DNA of 64,000 nucleotides, taken from positions 3,318,483 to 3,382,482 of the forward strand of contig NZ_JAEACF010000001.1 of NCBI RefSeq assembly GCF_016401385.1, read 5' to 3'. The translations under genes were made by a program, and so were the position numbers. Below are positions 12,559 through 17,870 of this stretch, piece after piece. The stretch comes from Fictibacillus halophilus. Lineage in GTDB: Bacteria > Bacillota > Bacilli > Bacillales > Fictibacillaceae. The notes beneath the pieces were generated by a model, which was not told the origin of the DNA, made no database searches, and saw only the letters and a list, made by a program, of their open reading frames with translations. The number at the start of each line of letters is the position of its first letter. Position 1 is the first letter of the stretch.

Positions 12559-13266
12559 TCATTGCACTCTTCTTTTTTGTACGAAAGCTATGAAAATTGA
12601 TAGGAAGAACAAGCTATAAAGTATAATCCATCCAAACTTTTCATAAGCCTGAACAGGAAATACATTTATTTGATTGTCATCTATACTCATAATTTCCAAA
12701 CAATAACGTAAAGGTGGTGTAATCCAGCTAATAAATTGTAGGATCTCGATTTTTGCCACAGCTATTACTAATGTTCCTATAAGAACACTACTTACACCCC
12801 ACCAAGTGTTTGCATTACTTCTCACAAGGTCTCTCGTAAAAAAAGATGAAAGTGCTACAGAAAGGATAGCCAGGCTAAAATGTGCTAAAAATCCCATAGC
12901 AATATGAGCATTATTTAATCCTGGGGAAAAGGCATTAAAAGTAACAGGATATAAAACAGCTAAAATACTTAGTACCACACTGATTAGTATACAAACTAAT
13001 TCAAGTGCAATATAATATGTCTTCTTATTCTTAAGATGCATTATAGTAATATTTTTTTGCCCCTCATCCTCTGCATGAAAAATAGTAATAGTAAACCATC
13101 CCATAATAAAAAAGAGCAAAATTGAAGTATAAGCGTAGCTATCTAAGATTGGATTGGGTACGTAGGTATAGTTAATTACAAGCATCATAATAAACACTGA
13201 AAATGGCGGAATATACTTATATGTTCGGAAATAAGTGGAAAAGTGGTATAAAATCAAACCCTTCAC
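12559..13266 (-). CDS. ABC transporter permease (ABC-2-like), six-helix
   Basis: 235 residues with six hydrophobic segments (about 18-32, 46-62, 88-108, 122-142, 155-172 and 212-230), short loops and a basic C-terminus QKRRVQ. No catalytic motif. It is the membrane partner of the ATPase at 13283-14158, whose stop lies 16 bases before this GTG start; AAGGAGG precedes it. Substrate unknown. Together with the EcsC-domain gene upstream it makes a three-gene unit reminiscent of ecsABC, but the permease does not resemble EcsB by eye. The coding sequence is AT-richer than its neighbours, as are the other two genes of the cassette, suggesting acquisition. Confidence 0.8.
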   Translation of the reverse strand: MKGLILYHFSTYFRTYKYIPPFSVFIMMLVINYTYVPNPILDSYAYTSILLFFIMGWFTITIFHAEDEGQKNITIMHLKNKKTYYIALELVCILISVVLSILAVLYPVTFNAFSPGLNNAHIAMGFLAHFSLAILSVALSSFFTRDLVRSNANTWWGVSSVLIGTLVIAVAKIEILQFISWITPPLRYCLEIMSIDDNQINVFPVQAYEKFGWIILYSLFFLSIFIAFVQKRRVQ

Positions 13267-13282: not shown

Positions 13283-14158
13283 TTAAAACTGCTTAAAGAA
13301 TTCATTTTCTCTCTTATGTAAAGGCGCTAACAGCCTTATTAAAGCACCGCGGTCCAGAAATTCACTAACTATTTTATTTGTTTGTTTTTGACTCACATTC
13401 AGTTCTATCAATCTTCTTCCGGCATCAATTTCCTTTTCATAGGTAATAATATGTTTCAATGCATCGATGGAAACAGCTTTCGGTAATTCGAATACGAGTC
13501 TATTTAAAGGTTCACTATGTTCTTGTTGATTATCGATTTGAATAATCCTACAATCTTGAATGACATTTATTTGGTCCGCAACCTCTTCTAGTAGCTTGGT
13601 TTCATGACACGTTAAAACTATACTAATATTGCTCTTCTTTAAGGAAATTAATAACTCTTCCAAATCATTTTGTGCCTTTAAATCCAGGCCTGAAAGCGGT
13701 TCGTCCATAATTAACAAATCAGATTCTTCTAACATTGCTTGCATAATAATAACTTTTTGTTTCATTCCTTTTGAAAAATGAGTGATTCGAGTATTTCTTT
13801 CGTCTTCCAAGTGAAAAACTTCAAGTAAGCTATCAATACGTTTTTTCAGCCACTTAATAGGTAATCCTCTAATCGTTCCCATATGTATGAGATATTCAGT
13901 CGGTGTAAAAGGTAAAAACACAGGGGTTTGCTCAGGTACATAACCAATTTTAATAGGCGGATCGTTCCGATATAGGATTTGACCGCTATCAGGTTTTATT
14001 ATTCCGCCAATCATCTTCAACAATGTACTCTTTCCCGAACCATTTGCTCCGACAATTGCCGTTACCTTGTTAGGTGGAATTGAAAGCGATACATTATCTA
14101 AGATCATTTTCTTTTGAAACGATTTGCTTACTATCTGTAGATCAACAATTGTGTCCAA
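13283..14158 (-). CDS. ABC transporter ATP-binding protein
   Basis: 291 residues. Nucleotide-binding domain with Walker A GANGSGKS (about 38-45), a Q-loop in YVPEQTPVF, signature FSKGMKQK, Walker B LLIMDEPLSGLD and the H-loop TCHE. After about residue 210 comes an 80-residue C-terminal extension (from NRLVFELPKAVSIDALK) like those of bacitracin/lantibiotic-type and EcsA-like exporters. It energises the permease encoded immediately downstream. The cargo could be a peptide or lipid; nothing in the sequence fixes it. The gene starts 17 bases after the EcsC-like gene, so the three are probably co-transcribed. Confidence 0.9.
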   Translation of the reverse strand: MDTIVDLQIVSKSFQKKMILDNVSLSIPPNKVTAIVGANGSGKSTLLKMIGGIIKPDSGQILYRNDPPIKIGYVPEQTPVFLPFTPTEYLIHMGTIRGLPIKWLKKRIDSLLEVFHLEDERNTRITHFSKGMKQKVIIMQAMLEESDLLIMDEPLSGLDLKAQNDLEELLISLKKSNISIVLTCHETKLLEEVADQINVIQDCRIIQIDNQQEHSEPLNRLVFELPKAVSIDALKHIITYEKEIDAGRRLIELNVSQKQTNKIVSEFLDRGALIRLLAPLHKRENEFFKQF

Positions 14159-14175
14159 TCAAACACACCCTTTAC

Positions 14176-14799
14176 CTATTGAAATACTTTCTTCGCTGTC
14201 TTTCCTATTGTATTAGTACCTATACCATCAACCGCCCCGCCAATTAATCCACCTACTAAAGGTACAGCTTTTCCTAAGTTAATAATTCCTTTTTCTCCGA
14301 ATTTCGTTACTAATCTGACGCCTACAGCTTTATTTATTGCTTTTATAACTTCTCCAGGTATTTTTTTTATGGCCTCTTTAGCGATAGCAGTTCCGAATTT
14401 AACTCCAGCCTGTTTAAAAATATCTGTAGCAGCTTGTCCAGTCAGACATACAAATACAAAAGTCTTTACTTGGTCATCTTTTAACTCGTAACCTCTCATG
14501 TAGGCTATAGTAGCTATCATCCTAATTTGCACATACATAACTGATGCAATATTTGATGGAACGGCTACAGGTAATGTTATTAAACCTCCTAATCCAGTTA
14601 CAAAACCACTTGTTACACCTTTAGCATTTTGCCATCGGATTAAGCTATCAATAGCATCATCTACAGAAGTATGCTTTCTTAAATAGTTTTCTGCTAGCTC
14701 TGCTGCCGTGTCGGTTCCAGGTAATCCATTTACTGCTTTTTCATAGGCCCAATCTAATACTTGAGTTATTTTACTTTCTGTTAAACTATTTTTGGACAA
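14176..14799 (-). CDS. EcsC-family protein
   Basis: 207 residues belonging to the EcsC family. The central glycine-rich stretch GVTSGFVTGLGGLITLPVAVPSNIA is likely membrane-active, and VMYVQIRMIATIAYMRGYELKDD is the family's most conserved segment. B. subtilis EcsC accompanies the EcsAB ABC transporter and its function is unknown. TTG start at 14799 with GGAGAG six bases upstream. It leads an operon with an ABC ATPase and a permease, so functional association with the exporter is likely. The hydrophobic C-terminal third (VPLVGGLIGGAVDGIGTN) is also glycine rich. It is divergent from the nuclease-helicase gene. Confidence 0.85.
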   Translation of the reverse strand: MSKNSLTESKITQVLDWAYEKAVNGLPGTDTAAELAENYLRKHTSVDDAIDSLIRWQNAKGVTSGFVTGLGGLITLPVAVPSNIASVMYVQIRMIATIAYMRGYELKDDQVKTFVFVCLTGQAATDIFKQAGVKFGTAIAKEAIKKIPGEVIKAINKAVGVRLVTKFGEKGIINLGKAVPLVGGLIGGAVDGIGTNTIGKTAKKVFQ

Positions 14800-15011
14800 G
14801 ATGATCTCTCCTATATCGATTCTTTAAATAGAAAAATATGTAAAATGCAAGTATTATTTTATCATAAAAGCGACAAAACCCATCAAATAAAAATAAAACT
14901 GAGTTTAATTATACTCACATTAAACTTTTACAAATTTTTGAATGATAACTCTGTTCCTTTTAGTAAAGTGATAAAATATATGGAGAAGAATTCCAAAGAG
15001 GTGACGCTAAC

Positions 15012-16943
15012 TTGATTATTTACGAAGCGACCAAGACTGAATTTATATCCGATGTTACAAACGAGCTTCTCGTCGAACGTCTTTACGAGTCATACCAACA
15101 GAAAATCGGCCGTACTTCTAAAAGTGAAATCCACTCATGGGAGAATTCTCTTCACCGCATGTCAAATGTGATGCAGGATAACGAGATTCCAGATGATACA
15201 TCTGTCGCGATAGAATTCAAGATTCCAAATACATCTAAACGTGTCGACTTTTTAATAGCTGGCCATGACGGTGCTCAAGATCATGTGGTGATTGTAGAGT
15301 TAAAACAATGGTCTGAGGTTGAAAAGGTAACGTCTAAAGATGCACTTGTGTCTACCTATCTTGGAGGAAAAATGAGAACGGTCACGCATCCATCTTATCA
15401 AGCTTGGTCATACGCTGCTTTAATTGAAGATTTTAATCAGAATGTACAAGATCAACATATTGCATTGAAACCGTGTGCCTATTTACATAACTATCGAAAG
15501 TTAGAAAATGACCCATTGATGGATCCTCACTATTCAGATCATCTCGCTAAAGCACCTGTGTTTGCAAAAGGTGAGATACAGAAATTAAGAGATTTTATAA
15601 AGAAATATGTTCGTTACGGTGACCATAACCAATTGATTTATCAGATTGAGCGAGGTAAAATTCGGCCGTCTAAATCCTTACAAAATTCACTCGCAAGCTT
15701 ATTAAAAGGTAATCAAGAATTTGTGCTTATTGATGAACAAAAAGTGTTTTACGAAGATGCCTTTCACTTAGCAATTGAGAGTATCAAAAGCAATCAGAAG
15801 ACAGTAATGGTAATTGAAGGAGGACCAGGAACCGGGAAATCCGTTATGGCTATAAATCTTCTTGTCAATCTTATCAATGAAGACTTAACAGCATTATATG
15901 TCTCAAAAAATTCAGCTCCACGTAGCGTTTATGCTTCTAAACTGAAAGGCACCATCAAGAAAACACAAATCGATAATCTATTTAAAGGTTCAGGCAGTTT
16001 CTATGAATCAGAAAAAAATGAGTTTGACGTACTCATAGTAGATGAAGCTCATCGTTTGAATGAAAAGTCAGGATTGTTCAGCAACTTAGGCGAAAACCAG
16101 ATAAAAGAAGTAATCCATTCATCTAAATTTACTATTTTCTTTATAGATGAAAACCAAAAAGTGACTCTAAAAGATATTGGCAGTATAGATTTAATTAAAA
16201 AGTTTGCCAATGAGTTAGATGCTGAAATAGTACAAGGCAAACTCACTTCACAATTTCGATGTGATGGATCTGATGCATATATGGCCTGGTTGGATGACGT
16301 ACTTCAAATTAGAAAAACGGCGAATGCAAATGATAGAGGCGTTGATTATGATTTTAGAGTGTACGATGACCCGAATAATATGCTGCAGGAAATTGAAGAG
16401 CTAAATAAGAAAAACAATAAATCACGTATGCTTGCCGGTTACTGCTGGGAGTGGCCAAAAAATGGCCGAACGAATACTCTTCATAAAGACATTGTTATTC
16501 CGGAATATAATTTTAATATCAGCTGGAACCTCTCTGACAGTATATGGGCAATACATCAGGATTCTGTCTCTGAAGCAGGCTGTATTCACACATCTCAAGG
16601 ACTTGAATTTGATTATGTAGGTGTTATTATTGGGCCAGACCTTGCCTTTCAGGATGACCAGGTAATGACCGACTACACAAAACGCGCAAAAACTGATCAA
16701 TCTCTTAAAGGTATTAAGACGCTAGCAAAAGAAAATCCAGAAAAAGCTCATGAGCTGGCAGATCAAATTATTAGGAATACATACCGTACACTAATGACTA
16801 GAGGACAAAAGGGATGTTTCATCTTCTGTACAGATCCAGATTTAAATGAGTATTTTAGAGAACGACTGAAAAAATCAGTTGTTTATCAGGATTTGTCACC
16901 TCGTCAGGCAGAAGTAGCTGCGGAAGATCGGGGTAAGTATTAA
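15012..16943 (+). CDS. Nuclease-helicase: PD-(D/E)XK domain fused to DUF2075 SF1-like ATPase
   Basis: 643 residues. The N-terminal 130 contain a restriction-endonuclease-like core, RVDFLIAG followed by VVIVELKQW, supplying D79 and E96-x-K98. The rest is a DUF2075 helicase/ATPase: Walker A GGPGTGKS (270-277), Walker B LIVDEAHR (341-348), motif III FFIDENQK, SQFR (413-416), motif V-like HTSQGLEFDYVGVIIG (526-541) and the arginine-finger region LMTRGQKG. All catalytic motifs look intact. The architecture resembles single-protein nuclease-helicase antiphage proteins (Nhi-like) of staphylococci, but that is inference. TTG start with AGAGGTGA upstream. It lies 41 bases before a MazG-like gene, probably one transcript, in an AT-rich patch beside rlmH. 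Confidence 0.85.
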   Translation: MIIYEATKTEFISDVTNELLVERLYESYQQKIGRTSKSEIHSWENSLHRMSNVMQDNEIPDDTSVAIEFKIPNTSKRVDFLIAGHDGAQDHVVIVELKQWSEVEKVTSKDALVSTYLGGKMRTVTHPSYQAWSYAALIEDFNQNVQDQHIALKPCAYLHNYRKLENDPLMDPHYSDHLAKAPVFAKGEIQKLRDFIKKYVRYGDHNQLIYQIERGKIRPSKSLQNSLASLLKGNQEFVLIDEQKVFYEDAFHLAIESIKSNQKTVMVIEGGPGTGKSVMAINLLVNLINEDLTALYVSKNSAPRSVYASKLKGTIKKTQIDNLFKGSGSFYESEKNEFDVLIVDEAHRLNEKSGLFSNLGENQIKEVIHSSKFTIFFIDENQKVTLKDIGSIDLIKKFANELDAEIVQGKLTSQFRCDGSDAYMAWLDDVLQIRKTANANDRGVDYDFRVYDDPNNMLQEIEELNKKNNKSRMLAGYCWEWPKNGRTNTLHKDIVIPEYNFNISWNLSDSIWAIHQDSVSEAGCIHTSQGLEFDYVGVIIGPDLAFQDDQVMTDYTKRAKTDQSLKGIKTLAKENPEKAHELADQIIRNTYRTLMTRGQKGCFIFCTDPDLNEYFRERLKKSVVYQDLSPRQAEVAAEDRGKY

Positions 16944-16984
16944 AGCTAGATACTAAACAAACAAACTTAAAAGGGATGAACAAC

Positions 16985-17293
16985 ATGAATGAAATTAAGC
17001 AGCTAATAAACGCTATCAATGAATTTCGAGATGAAAGAGGATGGAAACCTCACCACAATCCAAAAGATCTTGCTATTTCTATTTCCATTGAAGCAGCTGA
17101 ACTATTAGAAGATTTTCAGTGGAAAAGCAGTGAAGAGGCTGTAGAACAAAACATTGAAAATATTAAAGAAGAAATCGCTGATGTTTTCATCTACGGACTT
17201 ATGCTCTGCAATGAACTGGATTTGGATGTTGAAACAATTATTAAAGATAAGATTAAGAAAAATGGGTTGAAGTATCCTGTTTCAAATAGTTAA
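16985..17293 (+). CDS. MazG-like nucleotide pyrophosphohydrolase
   Basis: About 102 residues of the all-alpha NTP pyrophosphatase superfamily. The metal site is E36-x2-E39 in SIEAAELLEDF and E63-x2-D66 in KEEIADVFIY, the complete EX2E...EX2D pattern. Such enzymes cleave (d)NTPs or modified nucleotides to monophosphates. Of two ATGs (16976, 16985) the second is chosen because AAGGG ends nine bases before it and would abut the first. It follows the nuclease-helicase gene and precedes a terminator, making a two-gene unit. In this setting it may deplete or sanitise nucleotides during phage infection, or detoxify a damaged nucleotide; the sequence cannot decide. Confidence 0.85.
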   Translation: MNEIKQLINAINEFRDERGWKPHHNPKDLAISISIEAAELLEDFQWKSSEEAVEQNIENIKEEIADVFIYGLMLCNELDLDVETIIKDKIKKNGLKYPVSNS

Positions 17294-17318
17294 ATACTAA
17301 AAAAATACAATATGCAAG

Positions 17319-17356
17319 AGGAAACAGCACCTTCTTTATTAGGTGCTGTTTCTTTA
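17319..17356 (+). terminator. Terminator between MazG-like gene and rlmH
   Basis: GAAACAGCACCT and AGGTGCTGTTTC form a perfect 12-bp stem with an 8-base loop followed by TTT. It may serve both convergent genes, since the rlmH stop is 8 bases away. Confidence 0.8.
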
Positions 17357-17364
17357 AGAAATAA

Positions 17365-17844
17365 TTATTTGTGATACGGTTCCCCTCGATTAATCCGAAA
17401 CGCACGATAAATCTGCTCCACCAAAACAAGCTTCATCAACTGATGCGGATAAGTAATCTTACCAAAAGAAATCTTCTCATTCGCACGTTTCATGACAGCA
17501 TCACTTAACCCTAATGACCCTCCAATGACAAATGCCACTTTGCTTTTCCCATAAGTCGCAAGCTGATCTAAATTCTTAGCCAAATCCTCAGATGAAACAG
17601 CCTTTCCTTCGATCGCCATTGCAATCACATGAACATCTTGGCCGATCTTTGCTAGAATTCTTTCACCTTCAGCGTTTTTTACCATGATCATCTCTTGATC
17701 ACTTAGTGTTTCAGGTGCTTTTTCATCAGGAACCTCGATGATTTCTACTTTTGCATAAGGTCCTAGTCGCTTTAAGTATTCATCAATACCTAGTTTTAAG
17801 TATTTTTCTTTTAATTTCCCTACGGAAACGATTGAAATATTCAC
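17365..17844 (-). CDS. rlmH: 23S rRNA pseudouridine1915 N3-methyltransferase RlmH
   Basis: SPOUT-class methyltransferase that modifies pseudouridine 1915 in helix 69 of 23S rRNA. The SAM-binding knot is evident from [10 protein letters not shown] and the C-terminal [18 protein letters not shown]. With the GTG at 17844 the protein is 159 residues and begins [14 protein letters not shown], the exact family length and start; the ATG at 17865 would add seven unconserved residues. In staphylococci the 3' end of this gene is the SCC insertion site. The last codons here (encoding GEPYHK) are intact, and accessory genes lie directly beyond. Confidence 0.96.
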
Positions 17845-17870
17845 TTGTTGAAAACTTCCTTTCAAATAAG

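Follow-up and report, generated by a model that had tools for sequence, protein, structure and literature searches.

A nuclease-helicase gene and a MazG-like gene that adjoin each other in Fictibacillus halophilus (contig NZ_JAEACF010000001.1) probably form a two-gene modular antiphage system, in which a nuclease-helicase is combined with a nucleotide-pool pyrophosphatase. We infer the defense role from gene context. The pairing is conserved in bacteria and archaea in both gene orders and is also found on plasmids and a few viral contigs, and this recurrent adjacency in distant microbes, together with the frequent company of antivirus genes, suggests that the two products act jointly against viruses. 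Nuclease-helicase defense and nucleotide-depletion defense are known separately; here both kinds of genes recur as neighbors. With two intact genes and evident catalytic residues to mutate, the locus is a compact test case. No report of a pairing of DUF2075/nuclease-helicase with MazG was found in the literature searched, which covered few preprints or subscription papers.

The pair lies in a 64,000-nucleotide stretch of the contig, hereafter the window (Table 1). A first-pass annotation had described one protein that joins a PD-(D/E)XK-type core to SF1-like ATPase motifs (DUF2075), followed by a complete MazG-like protein and a terminator, and our results confirm this description. Its functional interpretation is supported in part: the pairing is conserved and the N-terminal 130 residues do carry nuclease motifs, two points on which it could have failed. 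An intact MazG-like gene follows the nuclease-helicase gene on the same strand after 41 bases, and a strong hairpin comes next. The MazG-like reading frame is open from an ATG at 16976, with the best start at 16985. The hairpin was absent from the list given by a scan for consensus-type terminators.

Table 1. Features of the pair and its surroundings, in window positions.
Feature	Position	Strand	Basis or remark
Membrane protein without Pfam match, beyond ABC ATPase	12559-13266	same as EcsC-family gene	
ABC ATPase, next after EcsC-family gene	13283-14158	same as EcsC-family gene	
EcsC-family gene, divergent from pair	14176-14799	-	PADLOC candidate PDC-S29, E 7e-90
Ribosome-binding site AAAGAGGTG	14995..15003	+	8 nt ahead of TTG start; read from sequence
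Nuclease-helicase gene, 643 aa	15012..16943	+	ORF; PF09848 E 4e-106
N-terminal PD-(D/E)XK (NERD-like) nuclease region, residues 1-158	15012..15485	+	Motifs, topology
Schlafen-group-3 SF1 helicase domain, residues 263-608; Walker A GGPGTGKS at 270-277	15798..16835	+	PF09848
Ribosome-binding site AAAGGG, second gene	16970..16975	+	Read from sequence
MazG-like all-alpha NTP pyrophosphatase, 102 aa	16985..17293	+	PF12643 E 2e-18
15-pair hairpin, terminator-like, between convergent MazG and rlmH genes	17318..17355	.	-23.6 kcal/mol, z -6.7
rlmH, hotspot edge, outside module	17365..17865	-	PF02590 E 2e-56; interval compared within genus

The first gene product is predicted to be a nuclease-helicase with a PD-(D/E)XK (NERD-like) N-terminus and a Schlafen-group-3 SF1 helicase, the fold-search support for the nuclease being moderate. 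Its helicase matched the whole of the Pfam profile PF09848 (SLFN-g3_helicase; positions 1-354 of 354) with 355.6 bits against a cut-off of 24. The homologues share the same MIIY-type start. Residues D79, E96, K98, Q130, and Y134 are invariant across the 82 rows of our alignment, and a separate alignment kept the D...E-x-K signature (D79, E96, K98) in 60 of 60. The N-terminal 130 residues, for which a nuclease fold had been proposed, carry the PD-(D/E)XK motifs and probably the topology of the superfamily (an alpha-beta-beta-beta-alpha-beta core), but Foldseek returned no match at 0.001 for the N-terminal domain alone. No Pfam family scored above cut-off in the first 250 residues, and PDB sequence searches with the whole protein and with its N-terminus found no relative. 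For the model of the whole protein, the best Foldseek match was SLFN11 (E 4.8e-10), and Dna2 and RecD2 were among the fold neighbors. Three helicase relatives (P0229, P0236, and P0237) carry a C-terminal S24/LexA-like domain (PF00717), a hint of control via DNA damage or self-cleavage.

The second product matched PF12643 with 67 bits (cut-off 27), and its EXXE...EXXD metal motif is present in all 64 rows of the MazG-like alignment. The nearest solved relatives are the pyrophosphatase 4qgp (E 2e-24) and dCTP pyrophosphatase 1 / RS21-C6 (E 5e-10), which belong to the same all-alpha NTP-PPase family; no tie of either to a nuclease-helicase was found in this analysis. Among characterized enzymes the protein is closest, by sequence, to dCTP pyrophosphatase. 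The family suggests dCTP or a modified dCTP as its substrate, which is a guess.

Conserved adjacency of DUF2075 proteins and MazG-like genes, which the first-pass annotation had put forward as a check, was found in several collections of loci. Of 100 helicase loci selected by hand from the match lists for relatives, order, and phylum (omitting short fragments and weak matches but retaining the broken genes L074, L122, and L145), 53 had a same-strand MazG-like gene no more than 300 bp away, namely 12 of 24 loci of helicase type A, 5 of 26 of type A', 5 of 10 of type B, and 31 of 40 of type C. It was downstream at 34 of the paired loci and upstream at 19, and four further loci had one farther off or on the opposite strand. 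A second set consisted of 80 named loci, the best among 537 relatives and in part shared with the 100. Of these, 40 had a MazG-like gene (22 upstream, 18 downstream), and the paired ones include two Woesearchaeota, two Saccharibacteria, and one Fibrobacter record. In the reverse test, 60 genomes gave 26 MazG matches, 13 of which adjoin a helicase; genomes with a match mostly have one MazG-like gene each. Within 1.5 kb of the helicase, 102 of 185 loci had a MazG-like gene, nine a PRA-PH-like gene, and seven a NUDIX gene, so that 111 had any of these and 74 had none. None of 640 overlapping control windows contained a MazG-like gene. The paired genes are separated by short gaps or overlap, in both orders and with all four helicase types.

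A same-strand MazG-like gene within 300 bp was lacking at 47 of the 100 loci, and type A' is mostly without one (21 of 26), which indicates that the helicase does not always depend on MazG in cis. Because about half of the loci have no partner, the helicase may work by itself or rely on a MazG gene located elsewhere. At five named loci (L260, L278, L282, L284, and L302), a same-strand gene of varying size stands between MazG and helicase, and some modules may therefore have a third gene.

Searches with the helicase gave matches in 22 of the 60 relatives and in 122 of the 397 genomes from the order, some of them weak, and in 14 of 199 genomes from the phylum, most of them weak. Within the genus, 10 of 18 genomes carry the helicase, and in all 10 carriers (the window, L063-L070, and L072) the MazG gene begins at most 60 bp after it, overlapping the helicase gene as called in L067. 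A scan of viral contigs gave only three helicase relatives. Two of these records (L337 and L338) hold full-length relatives of 32-35% identity with MazG immediately upstream, and a Microcystis phage record likewise has MazG upstream of its helicase relative. We did not accept L339 as a true relative: its match, at 24%, covers a part of the helicase, and the 722-aa protein was taken for RecD-like. The idea of a phage replication gene was rejected on the three viral-scan relatives and on the phage records, of which only 4 of 50,697 matched the helicase.

Enrichment near defense genes, likewise suggested for checking by the first-pass annotation, was pronounced. At a threshold of 1e-20, 140 helicase neighbors matched 93 PADLOC families and 140 control proteins matched three (mad3, SspA, and DndA), where the counts are of families rather than distinct proteins and a single protein can match many. 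The test proteins were 140 of 199 neighbors from 20 helicase loci, paired and unpaired, of types A, A', and B only, and as controls we took 140 of the 269 proteins encoded in stretches chosen arbitrarily from those 20 genomes. In a separate set of 20 neighbors, 15 had PADLOC matches; the set was picked by hand, so this fraction is no statistic. Within the genus, the 3' side of rlmH opens on an interval that varies up to the conserved genes and holds unrelated defense genes (L212, L215, L216, and L064). G011 has type I restriction-modification in this interval. Between the pair and rlmH, G007 carries Wadjet JetDABC and G015 two type II methyltransferases. PADLOC candidates are present in G005 (PDC-M26A) and in the window (the EcsC-type PDC-S29). 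G002 keeps MazG beside rlmH without the helicase (L208), and G014 has just a broken piece of MazG that contains a stop (L213). On a Priestia plasmid, the pair stands between MutT/DUF3578 and HsdM/HsdS-like genes. An SCC-like insertion at rlmH was considered and rejected, since the 3'-terminal 20 bases of rlmH do not recur elsewhere in the window when up to three mismatches are allowed, and no attachment-site repeat was therefore found. The stretch of the EcsC-family gene beside the pair is low in GC (34%).

Alternatively, the pair could be an island-borne operon for DNA repair and house-cleaning, not directed at phages, which would process damaged forks and remove damaged or non-canonical dNTPs. 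MazG-like and DCTPP1-like enzymes are house-cleaning pyrophosphatases, and the Pfam and PDB matches of the second gene product are of this type. Stand-alone MazG-like genes adjoin ordinary genes, and the Dna2 and RecD2 fold neighbors also agree with a repair role. A MutT-type NUDIX gene at seven of the 185 loci would fit as well, but this number is not clearly above background, given one NUDIX-motif gene in 300 kb of control sequence, and we rejected NUDIX as a partner for want of a clear excess. However, the patchy presence in the genus, the variable island location, and the strong enrichment of restriction and other defense genes nearby are unlike a core repair operon. We consider the repair reading unlikely, though it retains some weight.

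For the antiphage system that we favor, we infer the joint action, the substrates, and the order of events as follows. The Schlafen-group-3 SF1 motor would engage DNA that is free or single-stranded, for instance intermediates of phage replication, and feed it into its own N-terminal PD-(D/E)XK nuclease. The MazG-like protein may hydrolyze dNTPs, most likely dCTP or 5-modified dCTP, to the monophosphate and pyrophosphate, which would starve or clean the pool of nucleotides on which the phage depends. Forks might stall on the depleted pool and expose DNA to the nuclease-helicase. The guess of dCTP or modified dCTP would fit depriving a phage of masked nucleotides. In a more specific version, the hydrolase would strip modified (e.g., 5-modified) dNTPs that mask phage DNA, the phage would be forced to make plain DNA, and this would then be cut by the nuclease-helicase and neighboring restriction enzymes, which could be why two nuclease folds were repeatedly joined to nucleotide-sanitizing hydrolases. 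Nucleotide-pool policing joined to DNA attack would in that case be a general modular principle of defense. We regard this version as speculative and rather improbable.

Two parts of the module can be exchanged: the nuclease domain and the family of the pyrophosphatase. The nuclease domain of the helicases is either PD-(D/E)XK or GIY-YIG, which are unrelated to each other, and related MazG proteins are found as partners of both; GIY-YIG replaces PD-(D/E)XK in type C helicases (26-30% identity). Four of five type C proteins scanned matched Pfam PF01541, three of them above cut-off, and the GIY-YIG motif VY...Y[IV]G is present in 33 of 39 type C rows. The helicase tree (99 rows, with those shorter than 400 aa, L074 and L145, excluded) has at least 17 changes of pairing and, among the paired rows, five of gene order. 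The MazG tree (64 rows and 106 columns, with many unresolved forks) has at least 11 changes of helicase type and four of gene order. All four helicase types (A, A', B, and C) are represented among the partners of one supported MazG clade (100/99; 19 rows), and MazG phylogeny tracks helicase type less than it does gene order and lineage. The MazG of L088, on the opposite strand at an A' locus, shares 84% identity with the MazG of L132 (type C), and the MazG of L120, 339 bp off at a B locus, shares 86% with the MazG of L128 (type C). A PRA-PH-like protein is the neighbor at L104, L106, L240, and L255, the PRA-PH Pfam profile scoring above cut-off for L104 and just below it for L106; among the 80 named loci, two have a PRA-PH-like gene downstream.

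The MazG-like protein could instead be a host safeguard, clearing toxic nucleotides or a signal that arise from the action of a nuclease-helicase that is the sole defense enzyme. The 47 helicases without an adjacent MazG would suit this, as the helicase may act alone, and so would five short type C helicases (L131, L147, L155, L156, and L160) that have neither a nuclease motif nor an adjacent MazG, all from one genus and hence one lineage only. The MazG that G002 keeps at rlmH without a helicase argues against it, and we think the safeguard role distinctly unlikely. That both genes are simply frequent island passengers with no joint function is very improbable: each does occur without the other and the MazG phylogeny reflects helicase type less than gene order and lineage, but the empty control windows, the mostly single MazG-like gene per matching genome, and the recurrence of close pairs in both orders and four helicase types speak against it.

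The link to Nhi drawn by the first-pass annotation was recovered as a PADLOC profile match of 55.6 bits, but it is not specific, since AbiO (59.4 bits) and PDC-S41 (58.2 bits) scored alike. As these scores are similar and low, we claim membership in none of the three. Nhi is described as a single nuclease-helicase (PMC11811056). It resembles our protein in joining a nuclease to an SF1-type helicase in an island or plasmid setting. However, its profile matches in two stretches, the better of which (257-418) lies in the helicase core, and it is described as a lone enzyme, whereas a pyrophosphatase gene is a recurrent neighbor here. AbiO has a related helicase core, with its best stretch confined to 234-419. 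The best stretch for PDC-S41 (3-301) covers the N-terminal domain, but the score is weak for a profile of 657 positions, and PDC-S41 is a PADLOC candidate without a known mechanism. The MazG-like protein matched no PADLOC model. Human SLFN11 and SLFN14 share the helicase domain, to which Pfam gives the name Schlafen group 3, and the match is confined to it. The N-terminal nuclease of Schlafen proteins is the Schlafen RNase core, whereas that of the proteins described here is PD-(D/E)XK or GIY-YIG. Hachiman HamAB and AbpAB are also nuclease and helicase defense systems. Hachiman is reported to sense DNA damage, its HamA nuclease and HamB helicase are said to be separate proteins, and the abstracts on these systems mention no pyrophosphatase. 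MazG is among the defense domains that were predicted in a recent machine-learning study and still await validation (PMC13092281). Passages on a GIY-YIG single-protein defense enzyme mention neither a helicase nor MazG (PMC12923530), and passages that place Schlafen RNases in BREX loci do not mention MazG (PMC12839542).

Other arrangements were seen around some helicase relatives. Two tandem helicase genes occupy 5001-8987 of L310, a Hymenobacter plasmid, and pieces of two such genes (5155-8742 of L307) adjoin a MazG gene on a Marivirga plasmid. Near L335, L261, L274, L240, and L282, genes for PRA-PH-like proteins, MutT-type NUDIX proteins, and large helicases (of the PLD-helicase type, as read from their sequences) are clustered.
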